From contig NZ_JAALJI010000040.1 of assembly GCF_011064595.1 (NCBI RefSeq), positions 1 through 37,720 of the forward strand: DNA of 37,720 nucleotides. Direction: 5' to 3'. This DNA is from Paludisphaera soli. GTDB taxonomy: Bacteria; Planctomycetota; Planctomycetia; Isosphaerales; Isosphaeraceae. A program made the translations under genes and the position numbers. A model generated the notes under the pieces. That model ran no database searches. It worked only from the letters and a program-made list of their open reading frames with translations, and was not told where the DNA came from. This document shows positions 213 through 23,062 of this stretch, piece by piece. How positions within the stretch are numbered: the stretch's first letter is position 1; the number at the start of each line of letters is the position of its first letter.

Positions 213-2138
213 CTACTGCTTCTCCTCGAATTCGACGTCGATGACCTCATCCTCCTTGCCCCCGCGCGGACCCCCGTCCGACGAGGCCGAAGGGCCGTTC
301 GCCCCCGCCCGGCTCCCGGCCGCGGCCGCGCCCGCCCCGGCGTAGAGGTGCTCGGACATCGCCTGGCTGGCGTGCTGGAGCTCGTCGAGGGCCCGTTGGA
401 TCGCAGCCGGGTCGTCCCCCTCTTTCGCCTGGTTGACCTTGGCGATGGCGCCGCGGACGGCCGCCATGTCGGCTTCCGACAGCCGGCCCTGGTTCTCCCC
501 CAGCAACTTTTCAAGCTGGTAGACGCGCTGCTCAGCGGCGTTGCGGAACTCGGCCAGGTCGCGGCGGCGCTTGTCATCGGCGGAGTGCGCCTGGGCGTCC
601 CGCTGCATCCGCTTGATCTCGTCGTTGCTAAGGCCGCCGGACGACTCGATCTTGATCGTCTGCGCCTTGCCGGTCCCCTTGTCCTTGGCCGTGACGTTGA
701 GGATGCCGTTGGCGTCGACGTTGAACGACACCTCGATCTGGGGCACGCCCGTCGGCGCCGGCGGGATGCCGTCCAGGTTGAACTCGCCGAGCAGGCGGTT
801 GTCGCCGGCCATCGACCGCTCCCCCTGGTAGACCTTGATCGTCACGGCCGACTGGTCGTCCTCCGCCGTGGTGAAGGTCTCCTTCTTCTCGGTGGGGATG
901 GTGGTGTTGCGCTCGACGAGTTTGGTGAAGACGCCGCCCTTGGTCTCCAGGCCCAGCGACAGCGGCGTGACGTCCAGCAAGACGACCCCCTGGACGTCGC
1001 CGGCCAGGACCGCCCCCTGGATGGCGGCGCCAATAGCCACGACCTCGTCGGGGTTGACCCCCTTGTGCGGCTCCTTGCCGAAGATGTCCTGGACGATCTG
1101 GTGCACCCGCGGCATCCGCGTCGATCCGCCGACGAGCACTACCTCGTCGATGTCCGAGGCCTTCAGGTTGGCGTCCTCAAACGCCTTCATCACCGGCCCG
1201 CTCAGCCGCTCGAAGAGGCTGTCGGTCAGCTTCTCGAACTGGGCGCGGGTGATGGTCATCGTCAGGTGCTTCGGGCCCGAGGCGTCGGCCGTGATGAACG
1301 GCAGGTTGATGTCGGCCTGGGCCTGGAACGACAGGTCCTTCTTCGCCTTCTCGGCGGCCTCCTTGAGTCGCTGGAGGGCCATCGCGTCCTTGCGGAGGTC
1401 GATGGACTGTTCCTTCTTGAACTCGTCGGCGATGTGGTTGATGAGGGCCTCGTCCCAGTCGTCGCCGCCCAGGTGGGTGTCGCCGTTGGTCGAGAGCACC
1501 TGGAAGACGCCGTCGCCGACGTCGAGGATCGAGATGTCGAACGTGCCGCCGCCGAGGTCGAAGACCGCGATCTTCTCGTCCTTCTTCTTGTCGAGCCCGT
1601 AGGCCAGGGCCGCCGCCGTCGGCTCGTTGATGATCCGGGCGACCTCCAGGCCGGCGATCTGGCCGGCGTCCTTGGTGGCCTGGCGTTGGGAATCGTTGAA
1701 GTAGGCCGGCACGGTGATGACAGCCTTGCGGACCTTGTGCCCGAGGTAGCTCTCGGCCGCTTCCTTCAGCTTGCGGAGGATCAGCGCCGAGACCTCCGGC
1801 GGCGTGTACTCTTTGCCGTTGACCCGGACCTTGACGAAGTCGTCGGGCCCCCCGATGACCTCGTAGGGGACCATCTTCTCCTCACCCCGGACCTCGCTGT
1901 GGCGGCGGCCCATGAAGCGCTTGATCGAATAGACCGTCCCCGTGGGGTTGGTCACCGCCTGCCGCTTGGCCGGCTCGCCGACGAGGGTCTCCCCCCTACC
2001 GGTGAAGGCCACGACCGACGGCGTGATGCGGCTCCCCTCCTGGTTGGGGATGACCGTCACCTCCCCGGCCTCCATGACCGCGACCGCACTGTTGGTGGTG
2101 CCCAGGTCGACGCCGATGATCTTCTCACCCTCTGCCAC
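213..2138 (-). CDS. dnaK: Chaperone protein DnaK (Hsp70)
   Basis: Cytoplasmic ATP-dependent chaperone that binds unfolded polypeptides with DnaJ and GrpE help. The product is 641 residues, the normal DnaK length (E. coli 638). The nucleotide-binding domain starts with [10 protein letters not shown] (residues 8-17). It continues with the [17 protein letters not shown] and [11 protein letters not shown] stretches, phosphate-2 loop FDLGGGTFD near 195, and [11 protein letters not shown] near 335. The interdomain linker [14 protein letters not shown] is near 385. A helical lid follows, then a Gly/Ala-rich tail ending [11 protein letters not shown], the acidic EEVD-like end typical of bacterial DnaK. 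The start is GTG at 2138, six bases after GGAGG; a longer in-frame start at 2171 lacks a ribosome site. No grpE or dnaJ is nearby, so this may be a second, stress-associated copy. Identification is certain; the copy status is inference. Confidence 0.97.
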
Positions 2139-2224
2139 GATGAACCTCCTTCCGGGTCCTATGCCCGTCACCCGGGCCTGACGACGAGATCTTCAAGATG
2201 ATCCTGCCGCGGCACCGAGACGAC

Positions 2225-2242
2225 AGGGCTTAACACAGCCCT
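2225..2242 (-). terminator. GC-rich hairpin between the HdeD-like gene and dnaK
   Basis: Perfect inverted repeat agggct / agccct with a 6-base loop, 16 bases past the stop of the HdeD-like gene and 87 bases before the dnaK start. There is no T tract, so termination or attenuation is only a guess. Confidence 0.35.
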
Positions 2243-2257
2243 CGTGTTCCAGGAGCC

Positions 2258-2896
2258 TCACGCCTCTCCGTCTCGGGTCACTCGGTGATGCCGATCTCGT
2301 TCGGCATTCCTCGCCCCACGACCCACCGCCTCGCCCGAGAGAGGTACGACCCCGAGCGACCCCCGATGCAGCCGGCTCCGCAGGCGGAACCCGAGAACGA
2401 TCAGCAAGACGCCGGCGGCGACAGCGTAGGTCCCGATCAGCCAAACGACGGCCAGCGCCCCGGCGGCGGGATCGACCAGAAGAATCACGCCGAAGGCGAT
2501 CGACAGGAGCCCGCTGACGACGAGCAGCCATTCGCCGCGGATTTCCTTGCGAAGCCGGATGGCCGCGATGACCTGGAAGAACCCCGTGACGATCGCCCAG
2601 GCCGCGATCACGCACAGCAGCGCGAGCGCCGTGATCCCGGGCCACAAGAAGGTCACGAATCCCGCCGCGATGCCGACGAAGCCCTCCAGCAACATGGCCC
2701 ACCAGGGCATGCCCTCGGTGCGGCCGGACAGAACGGCGACGAGGGCGAGGACGCCGTCCACCAAGCTGTAGGTGCCAAAGAGGACTACCAGGGCCCCTAG
2801 CGTGATCCCCGGCCAGGCGAAGGCCAGGACCCCGAAGAGCACGGCGAACAGCCCCCGCAATGCCAGGGCCCACCAGTTGCGAGCCAGCGTGTCCAC
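2258..2896 (-). CDS. HdeD family (DUF308) integral membrane protein
   Basis: 212-residue hydrophobic protein. The family is named after E. coli HdeD, an inner-membrane protein linked to acid resistance; no enzymatic activity is known. About six membrane segments are visible as Leu/Ala/Val/Gly blocks, beginning LARNWWALALRGLFAVLFG. The repeats ALRGLFAVLFGVLAFAWPG and MLLEGFVGIAAGFVTFLWPG give the duplicated R/EG...FLWPGIT pattern of DUF308. The C-terminus is a short basic cytoplasmic tail. GTG at 2896 is preferred because GAGGAGG lies 6 bases upstream; an ATG at 2902 abuts that site with no spacing. It lies upstream of dnaK in the same orientation and downstream of the yfdX gene. HdeD beside YfdX is also seen in the enterobacterial heat-resistance locus. 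Confidence 0.85.
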   Translation of the reverse strand: MDTLARNWWALALRGLFAVLFGVLAFAWPGITLGALVVLFGTYSLVDGVLALVAVLSGRTEGMPWWAMLLEGFVGIAAGFVTFLWPGITALALLCVIAAWAIVTGFFQVIAAIRLRKEIRGEWLLVVSGLLSIAFGVILLVDPAAGALAVVWLIGTYAVAAGVLLIVLGFRLRSRLHRGSLGVVPLSGEAVGRGARNAERDRHHRVTRDGEA

Positions 2897-3039
2897 GATC
2901 ATCCTCCTCTCTAGCAACCGGGGTTCGGGCGCCCGGAGAGACCGCCCTCGCCACGATCGCCCGCGGCACGGAGTGGTTTCGGTCCACCGCGACGCCTTCG
3001 GCCGCGTCCCCCGGAGACTCGGTTTCGATTCAAGGAATT

Positions 3040-3073
3040 GATCGCGTCAGTGGAGCCACTCATTGACGCGATC
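3040..3073 (-). terminator. Hairpin overlapping the yfdX stop codon
   Basis: Perfect 10-bp arms gatcgcgtca (3040-3049) and tgacgcgatc (3064-3073), with an inner gtgg/ccac stem. The structure contains the last codons and the stop of the YfdX gene (ends 3047). No clear T tract follows on the minus strand, so it may act as a terminator or as a 3'-end stabiliser. Confidence 0.5.
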
Positions 3074-4054
3074 CCACCACCGAGTGATCAGGTTTCCCTG
3101 GCTGTGCCGCTCGTCTCGGCTGGCTACGCGGTTCCCCTCCTGGCGGAGTTGGGCTTCCAGCCGCTCGACCTCGTCCAGCATCTGCTGCACCGCCTGGCGT
3201 TGCCCCTCGGGCAGCACGTCGCGGTAAGTCTCCAGCCGCCGCTTGGCGGCCAGCAAATTGGCCTGGGCCTGGGCAGCATTGTTCTCCTCGAGCGACCGCC
3301 GTGCCAGCCAAAGGGCGTCGCGGGCGGCGATCAGCGGCGAGTCGTCCTTGCTGTAGCGGAGGGAGAGTCCGCGGATCAAGGCCGCCCCGAGGGCTTTCGA
3401 GGCATCCTCTGACTTGCCTTGCTCCAGGGCCTTGGCCGCCCTGGACAGCCCCCCATCGATCGCGCCGATGTCGGCGATGACCTCCGTGGAGATTACCTCC
3501 GACTCGACCACCTGGAGTCCCGCGACCTCCATCGCGTTCCGCCGGGCGGCCAGGATCGGGGCCAGCGTCTGGGCGTGCATGATCCCCTCGTAGAGGGGGA
3601 TGCGATCGGGCTGGGCCTCGCGCTCGTCCTGGTAAACCACCTTGCCGTCGGGCGAGGTCGTCTTGATGTGGAACGCCGTCCTGGGCAAGAGGGCGCGGAT
3701 GGCCCGGATCGCCTCGCGTCCCTTGTTCACCTGGTCGCGGGCCCGCTCGCTGTCGTCGGCGTCGATCGCGTCGACTGCCTCCTTGATGTGCTGGAAGACC
3801 TCGGCCACCAGGAGCGAGGCCTGTCGCAGGTGCTCCGCGGTCAGCTTCCCCTCGGTCTTGGTCGACGTCTCGGTGCGGAAGCCGCCCTCCTCGCCGAAGG
3901 ACCGGACGACGGGCTCGGACCGTTCCTGGGACTTGTCGGCGTCGGCCGACTTCGAAGGATCCTGCTCTCCCCGCACGGCGCCGGTCGTGACCGTCAGGGC
4001 GATCAGGCCCGCGGCCAAGGATCGCCAGGTCGTCATCCGATGAACGTAACTCAT
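3047..4054 (-). CDS. YfdX family protein, exported
   Basis: 335 residues. YfdX proteins are small periplasmic, helix-rich stress proteins of uncertain function. They are reported near acid-resistance genes in enterobacteria and in the heat-resistance locus. A signal peptide is visible: basic MTTWR then the hydrophobic run SLAAGLIALTVTTGA before RGEQ. The YfdX domain covers roughly residues 60-270, starting LRQASLLVAEVFQHIKEAVDAI and including IPLYEG, EVISTEVIADIGAI and DASKALGAAL. The remaining C-terminal third is a second helical, coiled-coil-like stretch (ARDALWLARRSLEENNA, QQMLDEVERLEAQLRQ). The start ATG at 4054 is preceded by AGGAG at suitable spacing. The protein is longer than the roughly 210-residue enterobacterial YfdX because of this added C-terminal helix region. 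Confidence 0.85.
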   Translation of the reverse strand: MSYVHRMTTWRSLAAGLIALTVTTGAVRGEQDPSKSADADKSQERSEPVVRSFGEEGGFRTETSTKTEGKLTAEHLRQASLLVAEVFQHIKEAVDAIDADDSERARDQVNKGREAIRAIRALLPRTAFHIKTTSPDGKVVYQDEREAQPDRIPLYEGIMHAQTLAPILAARRNAMEVAGLQVVESEVISTEVIADIGAIDGGLSRAAKALEQGKSEDASKALGAALIRGLSLRYSKDDSPLIAARDALWLARRSLEENNAAQAQANLLAAKRRLETYRDVLPEGQRQAVQQMLDEVERLEAQLRQEGNRVASRDERHSQGNLITRWWDRVNEWLH

Positions 4055-4278
4055 GCTCAATGCTCCTGGAGTTCTTGCGTGTGGAAATTCTCGTACCTTT
4101 GGCAGGCCTCGGATGCTGCAGTCGCCGCGGTGGCGTGGGTCGGGTCCGTGTTCAACGTCGTCGAAACCCCTCCCGAACGCTCGAGGATCCCCAATCGGGG
4201 CGCCCCGCGAGGGAAACTGCTCGGCGAGGTGGAAGGCCTGGGGCCGGCCAGGGACGTGTCGCCGGCCGCGCCTCGGCG

Positions 4279-4299
4279 CACCGTCACGGCGCGACGGTG
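4279..4299 (-). terminator. Hairpin overlapping the BON gene stop codon
   Basis: Perfect 7-bp arms caccgtc (4279-4285) and gacggtg (4293-4299) around a 7-base loop. The structure spans the last codons and stop of the BON gene (ends 4284). It repeats the arrangement at the yfdX 3' end. No T tract follows. Confidence 0.4.
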
Positions 4300-4949
4300 A
4301 TGTGGTTCTCGACATTGGTGACGCCCGGGGCCGACCAGGCCTCCCGCTCGGCCTCCTCGCGCTCAGCCCACGAGCGCACGGTGCCGCGCAAGGTCACCTT
4401 GCCGCCGGACACCTCGACGGTGATCCGTTGGGCGTCCATCGCGGCGCTGCGCTCCAGCGCCTTCTCGATCTTCGCCTTCAACTCGCTCGGCGAGACGCTC
4501 GGCTCGACCGTGATCAGGTTGCTCACCCCCGTCACGCCGGCCAGGTAGCGGACGGCGTTCTCGGCGGCCGTCTTCTGATACTGCCACTCGACTTCGCCCT
4601 CGAGCTTGACCCAACCGTTGCTGACGGTGATCTTGATCTTGTCGTGCGGCACGGAGAGGTTGGCCTTCAGGGCTTGGACCGCCGCCGCGGCGACGTCCTC
4701 ATCGGTGCGCCGACTGCTGCCAGGCAGCTTGACGTCGAGCTCGTTGGCGACGGCCTTGACGCCGTAGACGCGCTTGGCCGCCTGCTCCGCGGCGTACTTC
4801 TCGGCGTACGAAGGAACGTGGCCGGAGAGGGTGACGACGCCGCTTTTGACCGAGACGCCGATATGGGCCGCATCCACGCTCGGCTCCCAACCCAGCTCGT
4901 CCAGGACCTCGCGCTGCAGATCCCTGTCCGTCATCAAGGCCGTGCTCAT
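4284..4949 (-). CDS. Triple BON-domain protein (OsmY-like)
   Basis: 221 residues made of three BON domains, at about 6-73, 82-148 and 153-221. Each carries the VTV..G.V.L.G.V pattern: [40 protein letters not shown] and [20 protein letters not shown]. Each then has a helix and a V..V.N.I/L.V strand. BON domains bind phospholipid or proteins; OsmY, the best-known family, is an osmotic-stress periplasmic chaperone. No signal peptide is visible, so export is doubtful. ATG at 4949 follows AAAGGAG. Upstream there is a sigma-54-like element at 5027-5042 and a paired near-palindrome at 5167-5207, so the gene is proposed to belong to the regulon of the NtrC-type regulator at 16640. Confidence 0.9.
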
Positions 4950-5026
4950 GGGTTGCTCCTTTGTCTCCGGGTGCCGGTCCGCTTGGCCCTGCCTCATCAG
5001 GGGGGCTGCCGACCGATACGTCCTAT

Positions 5027-5042
5027 TGCAATGGGTAGACCA
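5027..5042 (-). promoter_or_regulatory. Putative sigma-54 -24/-12 promoter of the BON gene
   Basis: Minus-strand TGGTCTACCCATTGCA has GG and GC exactly 10 bases apart, a TGG -24 core and a good TTGCA -12 box. The CAC part of the -24 box is not conserved. A transcript starting about 12 bases downstream would have a leader of about 65 bases before the ATG at 4949. The paired enhancer-like repeats lie 143 and 173 bp upstream, which raises confidence. Confidence 0.5.
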
Positions 5043-5166
5043 TATCGACATTTACCGGTGGGCGTGTTGATCGCCGCGGTGCAATGCCTCACTTGGAATC
5101 GACTTGGGGATTGAGTTGCCGCCGCTGCGACGGCTCGCACGCTCGCCGGGGCCGCCGATTGACCAG

Positions 5167-5207
5167 GACAGTCTGTCGCCGTGTCCTGGAGGGGGTGACG
5201 ACTTGTC
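5167..5207. promoter_or_regulatory. Paired GACA-N3-TGTC-like enhancer sites upstream of the BON gene
   Basis: Site 1 GACAGTCTGTC (5167-5177) and site 2 GACGACTTGTC (5197-5207) have centres 30 bp apart. They lie 143 and 173 bp upstream of the -12 GC of the BON promoter. The same pair at nearly the same spacing and distance occurs upstream of three other genes here, which suggests binding sites for a sigma-54 activator. The 8-bp arms ccaggaca/tgtcctgg also flank site 1. Confidence 0.6.
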
Positions 5208-6255: not shown

Positions 6256-7257
6256 TCAGCCCGCGGGCGGTGCGGCCAGGGCGGCGGGCGCTTCCGCCTT
6301 GAGACGCGGCAGGATCTCCCGCCCCACCTCTTCGAGGACCTCGGCCGCGTCGCGCCTGGCATACTTGAAATTGAGGACGACGTGGTGCACCCCGGCCGCG
6401 CGGAGCCCGTTGAGGAAGCGGACGACGAGGTTGCGGCCGCCGCGGAAGCCGAGGTGGATCGACTCCGGCGGACCGTCCGGATCGACGGTCAGGTCGATAT
6501 ACAGGGACTGGACGAATGGCTTGAACACGCCCGGCGACGCGGCCGAGACGGCGGAACTCCAACTCGCGGCGAGTCGCTCCTGTTGATCAAGGGGGCGAGG
6601 GTAGGTGATCCAGCCATCTGCATGCTCGGCGATCCACTCCAGGCTCTGGCGGCTGGAGCCGGTGACGAGGATCGGCAGCCGACCGGTCGGTTTGGGCACG
6701 AGGTCGGCCGTCCCGGACAGCACCCCGTAGGCCGACCGGACCGTCGGGAACTCCTCGGAGAGCACCACGCGGAGCACGCGGAAGTTGTCCCGGAAGAGCG
6801 CATCACGCCGCTCGTAGTCGACGCCGAACGCCGGGAACTCGACCGGCCGGTCGCCGGAGGCGACGCCGAGCACTAGTCGGCCGCCGGTAAGTCGGTCGAC
6901 CGAGGCCGCGGCCTTGGCGGTGTGCAGCGGGTGGCGCAAGGGGAGGACGATCGAGCCGGTCGCCAGCGCGATCGTGCTCGTCCGAGCAGCGATCCAACCG
7001 AGGTAGACCCAGGGGTCGTAGACCTGGCCGACGTCGCCGAAGCTCGGGTCGCGCAGCGGCACGTCGCGCACCCAGAGGGCGGCGAAGCCCAGTTCCTCGG
7101 CCCGCACCGCCAGCCGCTCCTGGTGGCGCATCGTCGGCCGGTCGCCCTGGAACGACTCGATCGGGAAGAAGACGCCCAGCGTCAGCCGGCCTGGCGCGAA
7201 CATCCTCCGGAAGCTCGTCGATTCGTCCTCGCCGGCCGCGGAATTCCCGTTCGCCAT
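6256..7257 (-). CDS. Luciferase-type (LLM class) oxidoreductase, BA3436-like
   Basis: 333 residues of the bacterial-luciferase TIM-barrel fold; such enzymes use reduced FMN or F420 on small carbonyl, amine or sulfur compounds. The N-terminus FAPGRLTLGVFFPIESF, then LAVRAEELGFAALWVRDVPL, DPSFGDVGQVYDPWVYLG and LTGGRLVLGVASGDRPVEF, match the subgroup known as luciferase-type oxidoreductase, BA3436 family. The substrate is unknown. ATG at 7257 follows GAGGAGG with four bases between; in-frame extension upstream looks non-coding. The gene diverges from formaldehyde dehydrogenase across 797 bp. Both genes have a sigma-54-like promoter and an enhancer-like repeat pair in that spacer, so the two may be induced together by carbonyl stress (inference). 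Confidence 0.88.
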   Translation of the reverse strand: MANGNSAAGEDESTSFRRMFAPGRLTLGVFFPIESFQGDRPTMRHQERLAVRAEELGFAALWVRDVPLRDPSFGDVGQVYDPWVYLGWIAARTSTIALATGSIVLPLRHPLHTAKAAASVDRLTGGRLVLGVASGDRPVEFPAFGVDYERRDALFRDNFRVLRVVLSEEFPTVRSAYGVLSGTADLVPKPTGRLPILVTGSSRQSLEWIAEHADGWITYPRPLDQQERLAASWSSAVSAASPGVFKPFVQSLYIDLTVDPDGPPESIHLGFRGGRNLVVRFLNGLRAAGVHHVVLNFKYARRDAAEVLEEVGREILPRLKAEAPAALAAPPAG

Positions 7258-7357
7258 GCGACCTCCTCTGCGTCCGAAACCTCGGGGGAATTCGATCGAC
7301 GCACGCCTTCCCGATTTCGGGACCCCTTGACTCGTGGCCGACGAATAGGCCTGCCAT

Positions 7358-7373
7358 CGCAACGTTGGCGCCG
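7358..7373 (-). promoter_or_regulatory. Putative sigma-54 promoter of the luciferase-type gene
   Basis: Minus-strand CGGCGCCAACGTTGCG shows GG-N10-GC with GGC in the -24 box and TTGC in the -12 box. Predicted transcription start is near 7347, leaving a leader of about 90 bases before the ATG at 7257. The repeat pair at 7507-7547 is centred 152 and 182 bp upstream. Confidence 0.5.
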
Positions 7374-7506
7374 GGTCGACTCCGCCTGAGAGGAGTTCGA
7401 GTCGATCGACTTCATCACGTTTCTGCGCAAGATGTTGGGGATTCGACGCCGAGAGGCTGCGGGGGTCGTTGTCACTGGCATTTCCCATTCCCGGCCGCTT
7501 CCATGT

Positions 7507-7547
7507 GACATTTTGTCGGGATCGAACCGGATGACTGACATTTCGTC
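7507..7547. promoter_or_regulatory. Paired GACA-N3-TGTC-like enhancer sites upstream of the luciferase-type gene
   Basis: GACATTTTGTC (7507-7517) and GACATTTCGTC (7537-7547) have centres 30 bp apart, 152 and 182 bp upstream of the -12 GC of the luciferase-type gene. They are about 450-480 bp from the formaldehyde dehydrogenase promoter on the other side, which has its own pair closer by. Confidence 0.6.
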
Positions 7548-7816
7548 ACAACGGGCGAGAGTAGCCGCCATGGGCCAATGGCGCAAGGAGCGGTTTCGAC
7601 TTGCGGCGGGACTGCTTCGATCGTCGTAAATTCTGGTCGTGGCTTGGAACAGTTGCTTATTGTGCGGGGGGATCGGCAAAGCAATGCCAAACGCTTACCC
7701 ATCGTGATCCTCGATCCATCGCCCCCGCCGACGTAGTGCCCCTGGATCACGTACGATTTCGCGCGCTTCCGCTGCCAGACGCTCGATCGCACCATTTCAG
7801 CCGACGCGGCGACGCA

Positions 7817-7858
7817 GACCTCTCGGTCCAGCCGCACGGCGAGCGCGGACACATTGTC
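7817..7858. promoter_or_regulatory. Paired enhancer sites upstream of formaldehyde dehydrogenase
   Basis: The nearer site GACACATTGTC (7848-7858) sits in a longer palindrome, CGGACA-CAT-TGTCCG (7846-7860). The farther site is GACC-TCTC-GGTC (7817-7828), a weaker match but a perfect inverted repeat. Centres are about 30 bp apart, 141 and 171 bp upstream of the -12 GC at 7994. Confidence 0.55.
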
Positions 7859-7980
7859 CGAACCGGACGGCGGAGATCAGCCACCGAGGTCGAGTGGCGG
7901 CAATCGTCGTCGAAGCCCGCGAGGTGCACGTCTAGTCGTCACCACGGCTTGTGATCACCGGTCTAACCGGCCCTGGGCAT

Positions 7981-7996
7981 CGGCACGGACGTTGCT
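7981..7996 (+). promoter_or_regulatory. Putative sigma-54 -24/-12 promoter of formaldehyde dehydrogenase
   Basis: CGGCACGGACGTTGCT differs from the sigma-54 consensus TGGCACG-N4-TTGCW only in the first base, with GG-N10-GC spacing. It is the best such match in the window. Predicted start near 8007 gives a leader of about 50 bases to the ATG at 8055. A short inverted repeat ccggt-cta-accgg (7958-7970) lies just upstream. Confidence 0.65.
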
Positions 7997-8054
7997 TTCG
8001 GCGTTCGCCCAAAGGCTCTCCATTCGGTCGTTCGACATTCGAGGAGGATCAGGC

Positions 8055-9245
8055 ATGCCAGGCAACCGCGCGGTGGCGTACGTGGGGCCCAAGAAGGTCG
8101 AGATTCAGAATCTCGACTTCCCGAAACTCGTCGACCCGCGTGGCAAGCCCTGCGAACACGGTGTCATCCTCAAGCTTGTAACCACGAACATCTGCGGGAG
8201 CGACCAGCACATCTACCGGGGCCGCTTCCCGGCCCCCGAGGGGATGATCCTGGGGCACGAGAATACCGGCGAGGTCGTCGAAGTGGGCCGGGACGTGGAG
8301 TTCATCAAGGTAGGCGACCTGGTCTCCGTCCCGTTCAACGTCGCCTGCGGGAGATGTCGCAACTGCCGCGAGCAGCACACGGAGGTCTGCGAGACCACCA
8401 ATCCCGAGATGGCGTGCGGGGCCTATGGCTTCAACCTCGGCGGCTGGCAGGGCGGGCAGGCCGACTACATGATGGTCCCCTACGCCGACTTCCAACTGCT
8501 GAAGTTCCCTGACAGGGACCACGCGATGGCGAAGATCCGGGACCTCACCCTCCTCTCGGACATCCTGCCGACCGCCTACCACGGGTGCGTCGTGGCCAAG
8601 GTCACGACCGGGTCATCGGTGTACATCGCTGGGGCGGGGCCGGTGGGCCGCTGCGCAGCGGCCAGCGCCCGCCTGCTGGGGGCGTCCTGCATCATCGTCG
8701 GCGACTCGAACAAGGAACGGCTGGCGCTGGTGAAGAAGGCCGGGTACGAGGTCGTGGACATCTCCGATAAGGTCCCGCTGCCCGACCAGATCGAGGCCAT
8801 CTTTGGCAAGCGGGCGGTGGATTGCGGCGTGGACTGCGTGGGGTTCGAGGCGCACGGCTACGGCCCGTCCGCCGGGGAGGATCCGGCGGCGGTGATCAAC
8901 GGCCTGCTCGAAGTGGTCCGCGCGCCCGCCGGGCTCGGGCTACCCGGCGTCTACACGGCGGGCGACCCCCAGGCCGAGACGGAGGATCACAAGCGAGGTC
9001 GATACGGCCTCGACTGGGGCAAGCATTGGGCCAAGTCGCCGTCGCTGACGACGGGCCAGTGTCCGGTCATGAAGTACAACCGGGGGCTGATGCAGGCCAT
9101 CCTCTGGGGCCGGATGGACTACCTGGGCGAGGTCGTCAACACCGAGATCATCCCCCTTGAGAAAGCGGTCGAGGCGTATCACATCTTCGACGAGGGCTCG
9201 CCGAAGAAGTTCGTCATCGACCCGCACGGGAGCGTCCGCAAGTAG
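8055..9245 (+). CDS. fdhA: Glutathione-independent formaldehyde dehydrogenase (zinc, NAD+)
   Basis: 396-residue zinc alcohol dehydrogenase-family enzyme that oxidises formaldehyde to formate without glutathione, as in Pseudomonas putida FDH (398 residues). Catalytic zinc ligands are C47 (NICGSDQH) and H68 (GHENTGE). Structural zinc ligands are C98, C101, C104 and C112 (CGRCRNCREQHTEVC). The positions are one residue off the P. putida enzyme. The nucleotide-binding fold is VYIAGAGPVGRCAAASARLLG. The insert around GYGPSAGEDPAAVINGLLEVVRAPAG and the stretch YGLDWGKHWAKSPSLTTGQCPV are hallmarks of this subfamily. ATG at 8055 follows GAGGAGG by seven bases; longer upstream frames have no support. 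It is preceded by a near-consensus sigma-54 promoter and a paired enhancer site, so aldehyde-stress induction through the NtrC-type regulator is proposed. Confidence 0.95.
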   Translation: MPGNRAVAYVGPKKVEIQNLDFPKLVDPRGKPCEHGVILKLVTTNICGSDQHIYRGRFPAPEGMILGHENTGEVVEVGRDVEFIKVGDLVSVPFNVACGRCRNCREQHTEVCETTNPEMACGAYGFNLGGWQGGQADYMMVPYADFQLLKFPDRDHAMAKIRDLTLLSDILPTAYHGCVVAKVTTGSSVYIAGAGPVGRCAAASARLLGASCIIVGDSNKERLALVKKAGYEVVDISDKVPLPDQIEAIFGKRAVDCGVDCVGFEAHGYGPSAGEDPAAVINGLLEVVRAPAGLGLPGVYTAGDPQAETEDHKRGRYGLDWGKHWAKSPSLTTGQCPVMKYNRGLMQAILWGRMDYLGEVVNTEIIPLEKAVEAYHIFDEGSPKKFVIDPHGSVRK

Positions 9246-9479: not shown

Positions 9480-9908
9480 ATGTCCCAGAAAGTAACTGTC
9501 GCCGCCGCCCAGAAAGTGATCGAGGCTTCTCGCAGGCACGCCGAGAAGATCGCCGTGCCGTCGTGCATCGCGGTGGTCGATGCCGGCGCGAACCTCGTCG
9601 CCTTCATCCGCATGGACGGGGCCTGGCTCGGCAGCATCGACATCGCCCAGGACAAGGCATTCACCGCCCGGGCCTTCGACATGCCGACGAAGGAACTGGC
9701 GAGATCGAGCCAGCCGGGCCAGCCCTTGTTCGGGATCAACGCGAGCAACGAGGGCCGGGTGGTGATCTTCGCCGGGGGCATCCCACTGATAGCCGACGGT
9801 CGGGTGGTCGGTGCGGTGGGCTGCAGCGGGGGAACCCCCGACCAGGATCACGAGGTCGCCGAGGCCGGCGTCATGGCGTTCGTCCCCGGGGGAGAGGCCG
9901 GGCGCTGA
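9480..9908 (+). CDS. GlcG/HbpS family protein (DUF336)
   Basis: 142 residues. The family includes the heme-binding HbpS of Streptomyces and GlcG of glycolate clusters; its general role is unclear. Signature segments are A...IEASRRHAEKIAVPSCIAV, DAGANLVAFIRMDGAWLGS, AQDKAFTARAF and the glycine-rich FAGGIPLIADGRVVGAVG followed by CSGGTPDQDHEVAEAG. The length is normal for the family. ATG at 9480 is preceded by GGAGGAG. The gene follows formaldehyde dehydrogenase by 234 bp with no clear terminator between them, so read-through from the sigma-54 promoter is possible. No heme ligand can be assigned from sequence alone. Confidence 0.88.
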   Translation: MSQKVTVAAAQKVIEASRRHAEKIAVPSCIAVVDAGANLVAFIRMDGAWLGSIDIAQDKAFTARAFDMPTKELARSSQPGQPLFGINASNEGRVVIFAGGIPLIADGRVVGAVGCSGGTPDQDHEVAEAGVMAFVPGGEAGR

Positions 9909-10592: not shown

Positions 10593-13500
10593 TCAGGGCT
10601 CGGCCCTCCAGCCGGGGCCTTCCGCGATCTGCGCGTGGAATTGCAGGCCCTCGTACGAGATGTCGGCGACCTCCAGGATGAGCCCCCGGAGGATCGGTCC
10701 GAGCCGTGCCACGAGGGGCCTCGCCTCGTCGAGCCGTCCGCGGGCCGCATGATCTTCGAGGTCCGACGCCACCTCGCCGGCGGCCGTGGAGAACACCGAC
10801 AACAGCCCGCAGAGCTTGTGAGCGGCCTCGCGGAGCCGGGGTGCATCGCGGGCCCGCGAGGCATCGGTCACCTCGGCCAGCCGGGCCGGCGCGTAGGCCT
10901 GGAAGTCCTGGCGTAACGCACGCAGCCCGGCTTCGTTGCCGCACGCAGCCAGCAAGGTGGCCGGGTCGAGGAGACTCGCGCGGTCCCCGGTCTCCAGTCG
11001 GGAAGCGTCGCCGCCGACTGCGAGCCGGCCGATGGTCGCGCACAGTTCCGCGGCCCGGACCGGCTTCGCGAGGTAGTCGTCCATGCCGGCCGCGAGGCAC
11101 CTCTCGCGGTCTTCCTTCCCCGCGCGCGCCGTCAACGCGATGATCGGCAAATGCCCCCCGGTCGCCTGCTCGCTCCGTCGGATCTCCTGCACGACCTGGA
11201 AGCCGTCGAGCTCCGGCATGTGGAGGTCCAGGAGTAGGAGGTCGGAGGCCTCTCCGACCGCCAGTTCCAGCGCCTCCCGGCCATCGGCTGCAACCCGCAC
11301 GGCGTGACCCCACCTGGTCAGCAGCCGCTCCAGGTGTCGTGAGTTGAACTCGCTGTCCTCGGCCACCAGGATGCGCAGAGGGGCCGCGACGGGGGTCGGT
11401 ATCGCCGCCCCGTGCAGCACGTCCGACGGCTGGGCGACGACTCGATCAAGGGGACCCGGCCGCCGCGCGAACTGCGCCGTGAAGGAGAAGGTGCTGCCCC
11501 GCCCCGGCTCGCTCTCCACGCCGATCGTTCCGCCCATAGAGCCGACCAGCCGCGCGGCGATGGTCAGGCCCAACCCGGTGCCGCCGTACCTCCGCGTGGT
11601 GCTGCTATCCACCTGCTCGAAGGCCCGGAAGATCCGCTCCCGCCCGTCGGGCGGGATGCCGATGCCGGTGTCCATCACCCGAAAGAGGAGGGCGGCCTTC
11701 CACTCGGGCGCGGGGCCGTCGGCGCCTTCCACCCGCACGGACACTCGTCCTTGATCGGTGAACTTGATCGCGTTCCCGATCAGGTTGAGCAGCACCTGCC
11801 GCAGCCGGCCCGCGTCGCCGACCAGGGGGTCGGGCACGTCCGACGACACGTCGCAGGCCAGCTCCAGCCCCTTGGGACGGGCCCTCACGACCAGTGTCCG
11901 CACGATGTCGCTCAGCGCTCCGCGGAGCGAAAAGTCGGACTGGTTCAGCTCCAGCTTGCCGGACTCGATCCTCGAATAGTCGAGCAGGTCGTCGATGAGG
12001 CCGAGGAGGCTGTCAGTGGCGGACTTGACGGTCTCCAGGCATTCCCGCTGGTCGTCGGCCAGGGGGGTGTCGAGCACGAGCTCGGTCATGCCGAGGATGG
12101 CGCCGAAGGGTGTGCGGATCTCGTGGCTGACGTTCGCCAGGAATTCGTCCTTGGCCCGGTTCGCCGCCTCGGCAGCCGCCTTGGCCTGCCGCAGTTCCTC
12201 CACGGCCTGCGCCCGCTCGATCCAGTCCGCGGCCTGGCGGGCGAGCAGGTCGAGGACGTGGAGGTCCCGGTCCGACGGGACGCGCGGCGTACGGTAGTGC
12301 GTGGACAGCATCCCGACGAGCTGCCCGGACCGGCCGACGAGGGGGGTGGATTGGACGGCCCGCACGCCGGCGCCGAGCAACACGTCCAGGGCCAGCGTCC
12401 CCTCGAACGCCAGGCTCGCGGTGACGTCGCCGAGGACGACCCGCTCGCGACTGCGCATGGCGGAGCCGCAGGCCGCCTGCCCATCGTGAACGACATTGAA
12501 AAACTCGAGGAACGGCGCCTCAAAGCCGCGGCTGGCCACGATCCGGAGCGTCGAGCAGCCCCTGTCGAGTAACTGGATGTTGCCCATGTCGGCGGCGGTG
12601 ACGGCGATGGCGGCGTCCACGATCTCCAGCAGGAGCGAGGTCGTGTCGCCATCCTGCGACAGCCGGGTGCTCACCTCCTGGAGTCGTTCCATGCCGATCA
12701 GCTCGGCGGCCAGCCGCGCCTCGCTCTCGCGCAGCGACTCTTCAGCTATCTTACGTCCGGTGATGTCCCTCGCGATCCCGATGAGCCCGTGCGGCCGTCC
12801 CGCGGTGTCCGTGACGCGGCGGACGTGAGCGTCGATCCATAACGGGGAGCCGTCCTTGCGGTGGTCCAGATACTCCCCGACCCACTCTGCGCCCGCGGCG
12901 CGGGAGTGGATCAGATCGGCGATCCACGCCCGCCCCGGCTCTGGGAAACGGTCGCCGTAGGGGCGTCCCATCATCTCCGCCGCGGTCCACCCGAAGAGGC
13001 GGGTAGCCCCCTCATTCCAGAACGTGATGGTCCCCTCGAGGTCGGTGGCGATGACCGAGTCGCTGACGTTGGACAGCACCATGGCGTCCCGGTGCAGCGC
13101 CTCCTGGGCCTGCGTCCGCTCGGTGACGTCCTGCAGCAGCGCCACGAAGTAATCAACCGAACCGTCCTCGCGCCTCAGGCACTTCAAGGAGATGGTGGTG
13201 TCGATGGTTCGGCCGTCCTTGCGGATCCACCGCTTGTCCATCGTGTAGCCGTCGATCTCCCCGCCCATGACCCGGTCGAAGTGGGCGACGTCGGCGTCCA
13301 GATCGTCCGGGTGGGTCATCTCGGACCAGGTCTTCCGCAAGAGCTCCTGACGCGTGTACCCGAGAATCCGACAGATCTCGTCGTTGACCTCCAGACATCC
13401 CATGGTCGGGGAGGTGATCGCCATGCCGATCAGCCCGAGTTCGAAGTATCGCCGGAAGCGCTCCTCGCTCTGGCGTAAGGCCTGCTCGGCGAGCCGGCGC

Positions 13501-16142
13501 TCGGTGATGTCGCGGAGATGGACGGCGACCCCCCCCTCGGGCATCGGGAAGGCCCTGTTCTCGAACCACCGCCCTCTGCCGTCGTCTTGCCCCTCGAACT
13601 CGCTCATCACCCGCTCGGCTGCCGCCCGGCGCAACTGCCGCTCCACCTCGTGGCCCTCCCCGGACGGGACCTCGTCCCAGACGCACTTGCCGAGCAAGTC
13701 CGAGCGCGTCCGGCCGAGCAGGGCCTCGGCCGGGGTGTTGATGAAGGTGTAGCGCCACACCCGGTCGAGCGTGATCAGACCGTCCGGGATGCTCTCCATG
13801 AGGTGGGTGACCCGCTCCCCGGCTTCGCGGCGGACGCGGGCCATCTCCAGGTTGGCGCCGACGCGTGCCAGCAGCTCGCGGGCGCTGAACGGCTTGACCA
13901 GGTAGTCGTCCGCACCGGCCTCCAGGCCCTCCACGCGCGACTCCTCGCCGGCGCGGGCCGACAGGAGGACCACCGGGATCGCTCGAGTCGCGGGATCGGC
14001 TCGCATCGCGTTCAGGAGGCCGAAGCCGTCGAGGCGCGGCATCATCACGTCGGACAGCACCAGGTCCGGCGGGCGGGCGCGGGCGGCCTCCAGCGCCGCC
14101 TCGCCGTCCAGTACGGCTTCCACCTCGTAACGCTCGCCCAGCAGCCGGCGGACGTACTGCCGCATGTCCGCGTTGTCGTCGGCCAAGAGGATGCGCGGCC
14201 GCTTCGCGACGACTTCGTCCGGTGCCCCTGCGCCGGCCGGTCGCGAGGCGGAGGCCCCCGGCGGGAACGCCTCGCGGGCGTTCCCGACCGTGCCCGGGAA
14301 CGCTCGGGACGTCTCTTCGTCGGGCAGCCAGCGGAGCGCCTCCTCGACGAAGGCGCCCGCCCCGACCGCCTTCGCACTGAGCGCGCGGGGCACGCCGACC
14401 CGATCGGCCGGCAGGTGGGCCGCCCCTAACGGGATCGTGACGGAGAAGATGCTGCCTCCTCCGACGGTGCTCTCCACCCGCACCGAGCCGCCGTGCAGTC
14501 TCACGAGCTCCTGCACCAAGGCGAGGCCGATGCCCGTCCCCTCGTGCGTCCGGCCGCCCGCCCCCTCGACCCGGTGGAATCGCTCGAAGATGCGGGGCAG
14601 TTCCTCGGCCGGGATGCCGGTCCCGGTGTCGCGGACGGTCAGCTCCGCCGCGACGCCGGCGGCTCGGAGGCCGACGGCGATCGCCCCCTCGAGGGTGAAC
14701 TTGAAGGCGTTGGAGACGAGGTTCAGGACGACCTGCTCCCACATGTCGCGGTCCACGTAAACTGGCTCGGGCAGCGGCGGGCAGTCCACGACCAGACTCA
14801 GCCCGGCCTTCTCGCATGCCGAGCGGAAGTTGCTGGCCAGTTCCGCGGTCAGCGTCGCCAGGTCGATCGGCTCGTAGGACGCCTGGACTCGGCCCGCCTC
14901 GATCCGCGAGAAGTCCAGCAGGGTGTTGACCAGCTTCAGCAGCCTCAGGCTGCTGCGGTGGGCGGTCTGCAGCCGCTCCCGCTGCACGGCGGGCAGGGGG
15001 GCGGCCGTGTCCGCCAGTGCGTCCTCGACCGGGCCGAGTATCAGGGTCAGCGGGGTTCGGAACTCGTGCGACACGTTTGAGAAGAACGCCGTCTTCGCCC
15101 GGTCGAGCTCCGCCAGGGCCTCGGCCCGCATCTTCTCCTCCTCGTAGGCGCGGGCGTTGGCGATCGCGGTGCCGATCTGGCCCGCGACCAGCTCCAGGAA
15201 CGCGCCGTACTGCTCATCCAACCTCAGCCGGGCGCTCACGCCGGCCACGAGCAGACCGGCCGGCTGGTGTGCCTTGGTCGATGGGATCGGTAGCACGACG
15301 GCCGAGGTCGGCCGGTCCGACCAGGGCCCCTGCGGGACGGTCCCGAAGCGGTCCGAGATGTCGGAGACGACCCGCGAGGCCTCGGACCCGAGCACCTCGG
15401 CGAGCGGCCAGCCGTGGCCCCCGTCGTCGATGCCGAGGATTCGCGGACGGATCGCCTCGCACTCGTCCACTCCGCTCGAGGCCGCCAGGGAGATGCACCG
15501 GCCGTCGGCATCGGCCAGATAGATCAGGCTGAACGGGATGTCCTTGTCGTGGGATTCCAGCGTCTTCGCCGCGACAACGCATGCCTCCTCGGCGGTTTTC
15601 GCCTCGGCGGCATGGGCCCCGAGGTCGCGGAGGACGGCCACCCGGCGCTCGCCGACCACCTTCCCGGTGATCTCGTGCACGGTGCCGAACACCCCCCCGA
15701 TGCCGCTGGGCACGCCGTCATCGGGTACGGGGCTGTAGGCGATCGTGAAATGGGTCTCCTCCGGCGTGCCGTAGCGATTGATCTCCAGGTGGATGTCCTC
15801 CTGCCACGTCGCCGGGCCGCCGTGGAAGGGCGAGTCGATGAGCGGGCCGATGACGCGCCAGATCTCGGACCAGCATTCCGCGGCTGGCTGCCCCATCGAG
15901 CCCGGGTGCTTGCCGCCGAGGATCGACCGCGAGGCGTCGTTGTAGAACTGGACGTAGCGTGGCCCCCACCAGAGGAAGAGCTGGAAGCGGTTGACCAGGA
16001 GGAGTCGCACCATGGTGCGGAGGGCGAGCGACCAGCCCGCGACGGGGCCGATCGGCGTCGCCGACCAGTCGATGGAACGCATCAGCGCGGCCATTTCGCC
16101 GTCGCCAGCCAGGCAATCAGCATGCAGGTCGCGACGTCCCAT
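10593..16142 (-). CDS. Giant hybrid sensor histidine kinase with two kinase cores, two receivers and Hpt
   Basis: 1849 residues, cytoplasmic (no membrane segments seen). Order: PAS-like N-terminus (WSLALRTMVRLLLVNRFQLFLWWG type, about 20-165), GAF (about 190-320), HisKA 1 with SHEFRTP near 356, HATPase 1 (NLVSNAFKF near 474; GTGIP near 510), and receiver 1 (ADDNADMRQ near 650; phospho-Asp in LSDVMMPRLDG near 697; LVKPF near 747). Then come three PAS domains (about 780-1140), a second GAF (about 1155-1290), HisKA 2 with SHEIRTPFGAILGM near 1339, HATPase 2 (NLIGNAIKFTD near 1457), receiver 2 (AEDSEFNSRHL near 1590; LLDLHMPELDG near 1639) and a C-terminal Hpt domain with AAHKLCGLL near 1772. ATG at 16142 is chosen because AAGAAGGA precedes it; an upstream TTG (16184) is less likely. 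It diverges from the NtrC-type regulator at 16640, its probable phosphorelay partner through Hpt. The stimulus is unknown. Confidence 0.93.
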   Translation of the reverse strand: MGRRDLHADCLAGDGEMAALMRSIDWSATPIGPVAGWSLALRTMVRLLLVNRFQLFLWWGPRYVQFYNDASRSILGGKHPGSMGQPAAECWSEIWRVIGPLIDSPFHGGPATWQEDIHLEINRYGTPEETHFTIAYSPVPDDGVPSGIGGVFGTVHEITGKVVGERRVAVLRDLGAHAAEAKTAEEACVVAAKTLESHDKDIPFSLIYLADADGRCISLAASSGVDECEAIRPRILGIDDGGHGWPLAEVLGSEASRVVSDISDRFGTVPQGPWSDRPTSAVVLPIPSTKAHQPAGLLVAGVSARLRLDEQYGAFLELVAGQIGTAIANARAYEEEKMRAEALAELDRAKTAFFSNVSHEFRTPLTLILGPVEDALADTAAPLPAVQRERLQTAHRSSLRLLKLVNTLLDFSRIEAGRVQASYEPIDLATLTAELASNFRSACEKAGLSLVVDCPPLPEPVYVDRDMWEQVVLNLVSNAFKFTLEGAIAVGLRAAGVAAELTVRDTGTGIPAEELPRIFERFHRVEGAGGRTHEGTGIGLALVQELVRLHGGSVRVESTVGGGSIFSVTIPLGAAHLPADRVGVPRALSAKAVGAGAFVEEALRWLPDEETSRAFPGTVGNAREAFPPGASASRPAGAGAPDEVVAKRPRILLADDNADMRQYVRRLLGERYEVEAVLDGEAALEAARARPPDLVLSDVMMPRLDGFGLLNAMRADPATRAIPVVLLSARAGEESRVEGLEAGADDYLVKPFSARELLARVGANLEMARVRREAGERVTHLMESIPDGLITLDRVWRYTFINTPAEALLGRTRSDLLGKCVWDEVPSGEGHEVERQLRRAAAERVMSEFEGQDDGRGRWFENRAFPMPEGGVAVHLRDITERRLAEQALRQSEERFRRYFELGLIGMAITSPTMGCLEVNDEICRILGYTRQELLRKTWSEMTHPDDLDADVAHFDRVMGGEIDGYTMDKRWIRKDGRTIDTTISLKCLRREDGSVDYFVALLQDVTERTQAQEALHRDAMVLSNVSDSVIATDLEGTITFWNEGATRLFGWTAAEMMGRPYGDRFPEPGRAWIADLIHSRAAGAEWVGEYLDHRKDGSPLWIDAHVRRVTDTAGRPHGLIGIARDITGRKIAEESLRESEARLAAELIGMERLQEVSTRLSQDGDTTSLLLEIVDAAIAVTAADMGNIQLLDRGCSTLRIVASRGFEAPFLEFFNVVHDGQAACGSAMRSRERVVLGDVTASLAFEGTLALDVLLGAGVRAVQSTPLVGRSGQLVGMLSTHYRTPRVPSDRDLHVLDLLARQAADWIERAQAVEELRQAKAAAEAANRAKDEFLANVSHEIRTPFGAILGMTELVLDTPLADDQRECLETVKSATDSLLGLIDDLLDYSRIESGKLELNQSDFSLRGALSDIVRTLVVRARPKGLELACDVSSDVPDPLVGDAGRLRQVLLNLIGNAIKFTDQGRVSVRVEGADGPAPEWKAALLFRVMDTGIGIPPDGRERIFRAFEQVDSSTTRRYGGTGLGLTIAARLVGSMGGTIGVESEPGRGSTFSFTAQFARRPGPLDRVVAQPSDVLHGAAIPTPVAAPLRILVAEDSEFNSRHLERLLTRWGHAVRVAADGREALELAVGEASDLLLLDLHMPELDGFQVVQEIRRSEQATGGHLPIIALTARAGKEDRERCLAAGMDDYLAKPVRAAELCATIGRLAVGGDASRLETGDRASLLDPATLLAACGNEAGLRALRQDFQAYAPARLAEVTDASRARDAPRLREAAHKLCGLLSVFSTAAGEVASDLEDHAARGRLDEARPLVARLGPILRGLILEVADISYEGLQFHAQIAEGPGWRAEP

Positions 16143-16639
16143 CGGTATGTCCTTCTTCGGGCCGCGTCCTCGTAAGCCTCCCAAGTTCGGAAGAAACGCC
16201 AGTGTACCCTGTCAAGCCCCTTCGGTTCGCCCCCCCCTGGGATGGAATGATTTCCGCAGCTTGTGATCCAGTTCGCTCTCAACCGGGTGGCCGACTTGAT
16301 TGCGGCGAGCGAGGGATCGTGGTATAAAATTCCATTAAGAACGAGATGAGGGGGATTTATGTCGAATTTTCATCCCAAGATTCTACCTCACCCTCGTCGC
16401 CTGACCTCCCCGCAGGAGGCGTGACGAGTGGATGCTCGTCGCTCCCCCGGCCATCGATCGGATCTCGAACGACCCCAGGCGACTGCGACATGGGCCAATC
16501 CCCCATGCCTGTCAGGATTCCGAGAGCCGTCCCCGGGCCCATGCCGGCGACAGGCTGCGAGCGACCTCCTCCCGGCGGAGGCCAACCGTCGCCATCCACC
16601 GACTCGAATCCCCCGGGCCCATCGTTATGGCGCACCTCC
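16143..16639. other. Divergent intergenic region between hybrid kinase and NtrC-type regulator
   Basis: 497 bases without a convincing gene. An AT-rich stretch with TATAAA (about 16323-16328) may hold a -10-like element for the plus strand, but no well-spaced -35 box is seen. A long imperfect hairpin lies at 16393-16428: ctcgtcgcct pairs with aggc-gt-gacgag with a 2-base bulge, and has an inner cct/agg stem. It would fall in the leader of the regulator transcript. No paired GACA-N3-TGTC sites occur here. Confidence 0.4.
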
Positions 16640-18025
<1,386 letters not shown>

Positions 18026-18120: not shown

Positions 18121-18160
18121 GACAATCTGTCCGTCGTCCCCGAGCGAGCGACATTCTGTC
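18121..18160. promoter_or_regulatory. Paired GACA-N3-TGTC enhancer sites upstream of hsp20
   Basis: GACAATCTGTC (18121-18131) and GACATTCTGTC (18150-18160) have centres 29 bp apart, 174 and 145 bp upstream of the -12 GC at 18300. The second lies in a longer palindrome GCGACA-TTC-TGTCGC (18148-18162). A further half-site-like acaaaatctgtcc follows near 18221-18233. Confidence 0.62.
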
Positions 18161-18286: not shown

Positions 18287-18302
18287 GGGCACATCTCTTG
18301 CG
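18287..18302 (+). promoter_or_regulatory. Putative sigma-54 -24/-12 promoter of hsp20
   Basis: GGGCACATCTCTTGCG keeps GGCAC in the -24 box and TTGC in the -12 box with GG-N10-GC spacing. Predicted start is near 18313, leaving an unusually long leader of about 200 bases before the ATG at 18511. The gene for a sigma-54 activator ends 262 bp upstream. Confidence 0.6.
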
Positions 18303-18510: not shown

Positions 18511-18975
18511 ATGGCGATCCTACGCTGGGAACCACTCCGCGAGATGGTGAACCTTCGCGACGCGATGAACGCGCTGTTACAGGAGAGCTTCGTCCGCCCC
18601 ACCGGACTGCTGGCCCGCGGCGGCCCCACGATACTCCCCCTGGACGTCTTCGAGGACGAGAACGAGTTCGTCGTCAAGGCATTGTTGCCGGGCGTGCGTC
18701 CCGAGGACGTCCACATGACGGCCCACGGCGACACGCCGACGACCCGCGGGGAGATCAAGACCGTGGAGGAAAAGCAGGACGAGCGGTATCACCTGCGCGA
18801 GCGCCGCTACGGCCGGTTCCAGCGTGTGGCGAGCCTCTCGACCCCGATCGACGCCAGTCAGGTCCAGGCCCAGCATGAGGACGGCGTTTCGATGCTGAGG
18901 CTGCCCAAGGCCGAGGAGGCCAGGCCCAAGGAGATCAAAATGGGCGGCCCGGGTTCGGCCGGGAGGTCTCAGTGA
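18511..18975 (+). CDS. Hsp20/alpha-crystallin family small heat-shock protein
   Basis: 154 residues. Small heat-shock proteins form oligomers that hold unfolding proteins for DnaK and other refolding machines. The N-terminal WEPLREMVNLRDAMNALLQESF and the alpha-crystallin domain (about 43-140) are typical: LDVFEDENEFVVKALLPGVRPEDV, then YHLRERRYGRFQRVASLSTPIDASQ and DGVSMLRLPKAEEARPKEIKM. The usual V.GD.LTI.GE strand reads HGDTPTTRGEIK, and the usual DGVL.L.LPK reads DGVSMLRLPK; both are mild departures from the family. The C-terminal I-x-I-like oligomerisation motif is IKM, so it is weak. ATG at 18511 follows GGGAGGA. Its upstream region holds a sigma-54-like promoter and paired enhancer sites. 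Confidence 0.92.
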   Translation: MAILRWEPLREMVNLRDAMNALLQESFVRPTGLLARGGPTILPLDVFEDENEFVVKALLPGVRPEDVHMTAHGDTPTTRGEIKTVEEKQDERYHLRERRYGRFQRVASLSTPIDASQVQAQHEDGVSMLRLPKAEEARPKEIKMGGPGSAGRSQ

Positions 18976-23026: not shown

Positions 23027-23062
23027 TCCGGCCGGATCGCCGCCCTCAGAGGAGACCGAGAC

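Follow-up and report, generated by a model that had tools for sequence, protein, structure and literature searches.

The window analysed here is an entire contig (C133) of 37,720 bases from an 8-Mb genome in 197 contigs, and the stretch under study is the spacer at positions 7258-8054, which separates a minus-strand gene for an LLM-class luciferase-like oxidoreductase (LLM) from the divergent, plus-strand fdhA. These genes, together with the predicted promoters and enhancers of the spacer and of two further units on the contig, are included in Table 1. For the LLM protein, the top solved chain was 2b81. FdhA aligns almost full length with the glutathione-independent formaldehyde dehydrogenase/dismutase chains given in the table, but it differs from this family in that its score against the NCBIfam model TIGR02819 (glutathione-independent formaldehyde dehydrogenase), 590.6 bits, falls under the equivalog cut-off of 636.95, so that its substrate is not certain and the assignment is putative. 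The HbpS-like gene downstream, after a gap of about 235 bp, is possibly part of the fdhA unit. Such a gene also adjoins fdhA, upstream of it, in three acidobacterial loci (L136, L139 and L140), a gene pair that recurs.

Table 1. Genes, predicted promoters and candidate enhancers of the spacer and of related units in the window.
Feature	Position	Strand	Basis or remark
Probable stress operon	213-4949	-	BON 4284-4949, YfdX 3047-4315, DUF308 2258-2917, dnaK 213-2171
BON unit -24/-12 promoter TGGTCTACCCATTGCA	5027-5042	-	motif match
BON unit enhancer pair	5167-5207		dyad scan, composite model
LLM-class luciferase-like oxidoreductase, TIGR03571 family	6256-7257	-	Pfam Bac_luciferase 162 bits; TIGR03571 416.9 bits against cut-off 303.9
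LLM -24/-12 promoter CGGCGCCAACGTTGCG	7373-7358	-	3 mismatches to TGGCACNNNNNTTGCW; GG and GC kept at right spacing
26-nt block GATCGACTTCATCACGTTTCTGCGCA	7404-7429		identical in A. insulae; between LLM promoter and enhancer
LLM enhancer pair	7507-7547		dyads 7507-7517 GACATTTTGTC (perfect) and 7537-7547 GACATTTCGTC (1 mismatch), 30 bp apart
fdhA enhancer, weak partner GACCTCTCGGTC	7817-7828		GACC-N4-GGTC: 4-base centre, C/G replacing A/T; GACCTCACGGTC in A. insulae
fdhA enhancer, main dyad GACACATTGTC	7848-7858		perfect
fdhA -24/-12 promoter CGGCACGGACGTTGCT	7981-7996	+	1 mismatch to consensus TGGCACNNNNNTTGCW
FdhA, zinc-dependent glutathione-independent formaldehyde dehydrogenase/dismutase-like	8055-9245	+	TIGR02819; solved chains 2dph, 4jlw, 1kol
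HbpS-like protein	9480-9908	+	Pfam HbpS-like 149.2 bits
Hybrid histidine kinase, 1863 aa, proposed sensor	10593-16184	-	GAF, two HisKA, two HATPase_c, two receivers, PAS, sub-threshold Hpt
NtrC-type response regulator, proposed activator	16640-18025	+	receiver PF00072, AAA+ PF00158, HTH_8 PF02954, all over cut-off; GAFTGA
hsp20 unit enhancer pair	18121-18160		two perfect dyads
hsp20 unit -24/-12 promoter GGGCACATCTCTTGCG	18287-18302	+	motif match
Hsp20 small heat-shock protein	18511-18975	+	heads run: bestrophin, PfpI, thioredoxin, aldo/keto reductase

As had been predicted, one sigma-54-like promoter was found for each direction of the spacer, both with GG and GC at -24 and -12 and 10 bases between them, and the fdhA promoter, the best of the four in the window, departs from the consensus at a single base. 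Placing +1 at 12 bases past the GC gives predicted transcription starts at 8007 (plus) and 7347 (minus). The genome encodes sigma-54 in a single rpoN copy (one PF04552 match, 201.5 bits). However, a sigma-54-like match is weak evidence by itself: the genome has 84 one-mismatch matches to TGGCACNNNNNTTGCW versus 132 for the reversed control and, since there is no excess over this control, -24/-12 matches were trusted only beside an enhancer. One such one-mismatch match, at 16641, was rejected as a coding coincidence, as it overlaps the probable start codon (MAHLL) of the regulator gene described below, with similar matches at the regulator starts of relatives.

Upstream of each spacer promoter lies a candidate enhancer built on the dyad GACANNNTGTC. 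The original prediction gave each promoter its own pair of dyads, which stands for LLM, where the pair is clear, and only in part for fdhA, where the stretch 7817-7858 comprises one strong, perfect site and one degenerate site. Perfect copies of GACANNNTGTC occur five times in the window (at 5167, 7507, 7848, 18121 and 18150), in all cases in intergenic DNA, which makes up 24% of the window by our gene list. Four of these five fall in three pairs 29-30 bp apart, the partner being either perfect or one mismatch away.

Conservation of the spacer

The same divergent LLM-fdhA pair is found in Aquisphaera insulae JC669 (G002), of the same planctomycete family (Isosphaeraceae), with LLM 86% and FdhA 74% identical. 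The spacer between them is identical at 560 of 797 window columns (about 70%), and both promoters and both dyad sets are kept at matching places. First, 15 of the 16 bases of the fdhA promoter are retained, and 13 of 16 in the LLM promoter, whose three changes lie between the two elements. Second, the LLM dyads keep 10 of 11 bases (the perfect dyad) and 7 of 11 (its partner, still one mismatch from the dyad). Third, the fdhA dyad falls within the longest stretch of identity in the spacer (36 nt, 7837-7872), and a 19-nt run (7512-7530) extends from the first LLM dyad onwards. The 26-nt block between the LLM promoter and its enhancer is a possible site for a bending protein; no second copy of it with fewer than six mismatches was found in the loci compared.

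This conservation bears on whether one enhancer cluster serves both promoters, the second dyad set being dispensable. Sigma-54 enhancers can act across several hundred bases, and of the fdhA set just one dyad is good, as such sharing would allow. However, both sets are conserved in A. insulae, that of fdhA more strongly (40 of 42 bases, versus 33 of 41 for LLM), and each lies at the usual distance of the regulon from its own promoter, which makes a shared enhancer rather unlikely. The proposal of two control units, one per direction, was thus borne out, both by their matching places in A. insulae and by these distances.

Other fdhA loci were also compared. A pair of dyads with at most two mismatches was present in three of 80, namely, L135 (A. 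insulae), L134 and L165; in the last, with one mismatch per dyad, it is located inside the fdhA match. The fdhA homologues of L133 and L134 are 83% identical, and no LLM gene was found near them in the stretches compared. In L134 a perfect pair lies in the interval that separates an ALDH gene on the minus strand from ADH and fdhA genes on the plus strand, and the promoter found faces the ALDH side. Genome G028, of the same genus and with an fdhA 86% identical, yielded neither a regulator orthologue at E <= 1e-150 nor a pair; it has a two-mismatch sigma-54 site 85 bp before fdhA.

Geometry and rarity of the enhancer-promoter units

Two further units of this kind lie on the contig, one preceding the BON gene of the probable stress operon and the other hsp20. 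The probable start of the BON protein is ATG 4949, where there is a good ribosome site, rather than 5051, the first possible start of the open reading frame; the BON promoter makes sense only with the former. Measured from the centre of the enhancer to where the -24 element begins, the distances are 145 (BON), 154 (LLM), 143 (fdhA) and 147 bp (hsp20). When units from five genomes were put together, 17 of 18 had a -24/-12 element with three or fewer mismatches at 130-158 bp from the enhancer centre, a range that was set after the distances had been inspected. The strand of each unit was given by its downstream gene, save for the G027:C16 unit and the ALDH-side unit of G435, for which the side with the promoter match was taken. 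Dyad spacing is 29-30 bp in most units (27 in the BON unit of G027, 34 in BON-3 of G435), and in several units of relatives TTGT replaces the TTGC of the consensus. BON-2 of G435 has four mismatches inside 130-158 bp, but a two-mismatch site at 124 bp. The 18 units include the two fdhA units, which have the weak partner dyad, and leave out a G003 pair beside an LLM remnant, for which there is no good promoter. Against other offsets in the same DNA, the combined p was about 1e-12 for 12 units (the four of the window and the two A. insulae homologues being excluded), with zeros set to 0.002 and with units treated as independent, which they are not fully.

A loose pattern of the pair matched three places in the 8-Mb genome, all on this contig (LLM, BON and hsp20), and none in the reversed control. 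Single perfect dyads numbered 39 in 7.97 Mb, versus 21 in the reversed control, and five of the 39 fall within these 37.7 kb. To this we added a composite model, namely, two dyads 28-31 bp apart and a -24/-12 element 130-156 bp further on, which at four or fewer mismatches recovered three units in the window (BON, LLM and hsp20); three more matches at five mismatches are the same pairs read in the other direction. The fdhA unit is missed by this model because of its weak partner dyad, and rests on its near-perfect promoter and its conservation. No composite unit with up to six mismatches was present in 165,435 bases of partly overlapping loci from the same genome, a background from which locus L011 was left out; the single pair seen in background loci is presumably the hsp20 pair of the window, as L011 covers it. 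Likewise, 77 other fdhA loci, 728,354 bases in all, had none with up to five mismatches.

Chance resemblance in GC-rich DNA would agree with the promoter counts given above, one-mismatch matches being no commoner than in the reversed control. In 300 Markov shuffles of the window, however, the composite unit was absent at four mismatches, with means of 0.003 at five and 0.023 at six, and the motifs are conserved in a spacer otherwise only some 70% identical, so that the probability of this explanation is close to negligible. Given its rarity, the motif allows candidate targets to be listed for a genome.

The candidate activator and the distribution of its putative sites

The regulator gene of the contig encodes a receiver, a sigma-54 AAA+ domain and HTH_8, the domain composition of the NtrC family. 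Its scores are under the equivalog cut-offs of AtoC (441.5 versus 714), NtrC (417.2 versus 558.6) and ZraR (380.7 versus 760), and under the NCBIfam cut-off of each family among the matches listed (25 of 104). Homology to family orthologues begins at residues 95-99 (75 in G435) of the long open reading frame 16346-18025, and the start is therefore probably the ATG at 16640 (residue 99). The hybrid kinase gene is divergent from it, an arrangement that recurs in G002, G037, G038 and G435; in the stretches of G003:C340 and G027:C48 that were compared, no kinase homologue was found beside the regulator.

Regulator orthologues complete through the HTH were present in six of 45 family genomes (G000, G002, G003, G027, G037 and G038). 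The loose pair pattern matched in 13 of the 45, with one match (G008) in the reversed control, and in G000, G002, G003 and G027 two perfect dyads 29 bp apart occur together with window homologues. All four are among the six with the regulator, for which the chance is 15/148,995 (about 1e-4). G435 also has pairs and a regulator orthologue; G436, which has fdhA, has neither. All five genomes with strict pairs beside stress-gene homologues (these four and G435) thus carry a regulator orthologue with a shared recognition helix, GIS(T/A)RTLLRKI, which is common to seven of 19 aligned regulators and differs in the other 12. These 19 come from 20 loci, L118 having been left out by an ORF filter with an exact Walker string.

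In G002, G003, G027 and G435, the pairs precede homologues of PfpI/Trx, YfdX, hsp20, zf-UBP with TrxR, dnaK and BON. The BON homologues of G027 and G435 are 75-80% identical over their full length (nine loci compared), the BON/YfdX-type unit of G003 has YfdX as its target, the G002:C65 unit has PfpI and Trx as the only window homologues found, and one pair in G027:C16 is without a recognised target. In the window itself, at 22742-24712, a 94-aa zf-UBP protein adjoins a thioredoxin reductase with a cyclic-nucleotide-binding domain; the corresponding gene pair in G027 (L079) has its own enhancer.

Two observations were made on G003:C340. At L078 2642-2876, a 25-residue LLM match, 88% identical, is accompanied by an enhancer pair like that of the window LLM unit, with no fdhA found; it is apparently a decayed or rearranged copy of the LLM unit. 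The hsp20 promoter (L078, about 5005-5050) has two tandem copies of GGGCACGCTACTT(A/G)TA, 23 bp apart, an apparent promoter duplication.

The nine other loose-pattern genomes are G009, G011, G012, G014, G026, G030, G040, G041 and G044. The homologue comparison covered four of them, namely, G011, G014, G026 (two of three places) and G041, where no window homologue was found beyond weak kinase-domain matches; in one of the G044 matches both dyads are perfect, at a spacing of 27 bp. Across the phylum, a strict pair search returned three of 392 sampled genomes, namely, the window's own, G388 with one pair, and G397, of another family, with eight strict GACANNNTGTC pairs (contigs C5 and C8; L095, L097-L100). 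In the five of these eight that were listed, the dyads have a spacing of 31 bp and form part of longer palindromes, GACATCTTGTCCGTC...GACGGACAAGATGTC. The stretches compared, which for G397 were five of the eight places and one 19-kb stretch, showed no window homologues. The G397 pairs are possibly the site of another regulator or a repeat and, given these eight, strict pairs are not exclusive to the regulator studied here.

The dyads could instead be the site of a different sigma-54 activator, or of an unrelated regulator. With 12 near-full-length sigma-54 activator domains in the genome (E below 1e-61), another activator could fill this role. The strict pairs of G388 and G397, for which the stretches compared showed no window homologues, are consistent with this, as are G037 and G038, which have the regulator and the shared helix but no loose-pattern pair anywhere in the genome, only degenerate pairs beside the regulator gene. 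Against it, pair and regulator co-occur in five genomes, the shared helix differs in paralogues, and the near-constant distance to the -24/-12 element argues for a sigma-54 activator over an unrelated protein. We therefore regard a different binder as unlikely, and the regulator encoded on the contig as the probable binder of these dyads, judging from sequence.

The proposed stress regulon and known systems

The spacer would then probably hold two back-to-back sigma-54 units within a broader stress regulon that is run by the kinase and regulator of the contig. From the motifs, which are conserved, near-constant in geometry and found together with the regulator and its helix, we infer the following course of signal, phosphotransfer, binding and transcription. 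Sigma-54 RNA polymerase would wait as a closed complex at the -24/-12 elements of LLM (minus) and fdhA (plus). Stress sensed by the hybrid kinase would lead to transfer of phosphate to the NtrC-type regulator, whose dimers may occupy the two GACANNNTGTC dyads, spaced by about three helical turns, and assemble into an AAA+ ring that reaches the polymerase by looping some 145-155 bp of DNA. The same regulator would drive the BON/YfdX/DUF308/dnaK and hsp20 units, with LLM and fdhA as the presumptive redox and aldehyde-detoxifying arms of one stress regulon.

The spacer had been read as serving strong co-induction of formaldehyde oxidation and a flavin-dependent reaction. Taken as a dedicated system, this would be a formaldehyde or methanol response in which the activator senses an aldehyde and switches on LLM and fdhA only. 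Such a response would suit the one-mismatch fdhA promoter, the best of the four, and the Aldedh, zinc ADH, AKR and DJ-1/PfpI families also present on the contig. In this form the original prediction was not supported, as both in the window and in relatives the same enhancer precedes genes for chaperones, redox proteins and envelope stress, and for this reason LLM and fdhA appear to be two members among the targets of a general stress regulon. Moreover, fdhA (E <= 1e-100) is present in three of 45 family genomes, whereas G003 and G027 (92% and 77% complete) carry the regulator and enhancer, with no fdhA found in them at this threshold. We thus hold a dedicated aldehyde response to be distinctly unlikely. 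Under the general stress regulon, the target list (DnaK, Hsp20, YfdX, thioredoxin, TrxR and PfpI) points to protein-damaging or oxidative/electrophile stress as the signal, not to formaldehyde as a carbon source.

More broadly, it seems reasonably likely that this is a patchy, self-contained planctomycete stress regulon with its own kinase and activator and an enhancer, GACANNNTGTC-N18/19-GACANNNTGTC, about 130-155 bp from its promoters, in which new targets, the divergent LLM/fdhA pair being an example, gain a whole enhancer-promoter unit. The gene classes involved are chaperones, YfdX/BON/DUF308 envelope proteins, and thiol and aldehyde redox enzymes.

NtrC, a sigma-54 response regulator, acts at glnA through tandem enhancer sites. 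The system proposed here resembles those of the NtrC family in its receiver, AAA+ and Fis-type HTH domains and in its paired palindromes, which are separated by about three turns and lie over 100 bp ahead of a -24/-12 element; it differs in its palindrome, GACANNNTGTC, in its hybrid kinase partner and in its stress-gene targets. To our knowledge, planctomycete sigma-54 activators are many and their individual targets mostly unassigned. Here, sequence alone allows one activator, a likely kinase, a likely motif and about 18 target units across five genomes to be named, and the system offers a direct test of whether sigma-54 runs part of heat-shock and redox defence in planctomycetes.

In the portion of the literature drawn on here, DnaK, IbpA and other chaperone COGs are enriched for predicted sigma-54 regulation in Planctomycetia, and planctomycete COG2204 regulators are assigned to ZraR (Carrera-Reyna et al. 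2025, PMC12316311). Within that portion, an activator-binding motif, a paired enhancer and a defined regulon are not named, unlike here, and the terms 'formaldehyde' and 'upstream activat' are absent from the main text of PMC12316311. In Rhodopirellula baltica, according to the part of PMC2754498 concerned with these genes, heat shock induces hsp20, dnaK and two histidine kinases, and rpoN falls under high salt. Our literature search found no paper with the motif strings and no published description of this regulator, motif or regulon, which appear to be new, the class of mechanism being known.

The gene content also recalls the transmissible locus of stress tolerance (tLST), a proteobacterial island which, as outlined in part of PMC8290217, groups sHsp20, YfdX, HdeD, thioredoxin and KefB with ClpK, FtsH and DegP. 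As far as that outline goes, the window likewise groups sHsp20, YfdX, a DUF308 protein, thioredoxin and a potassium-transport-related protein (TrkA_C versus KefB). We take the DUF308 protein to be the equivalent of HdeD. A Pfam scan of proteins from a subset of the window ORFs gave no match to ClpK, FtsH or DegP. Unlike tLST, the window has dnaK, FdhA, LLM and a two-component sigma-54 regulator, and its host is a planctomycete, not a proteobacterium. Separately, a DDE-type transposase fragment lies at 37356-37688, near the contig end, and together with the patchy occurrence of the regulon it hints at mobility.
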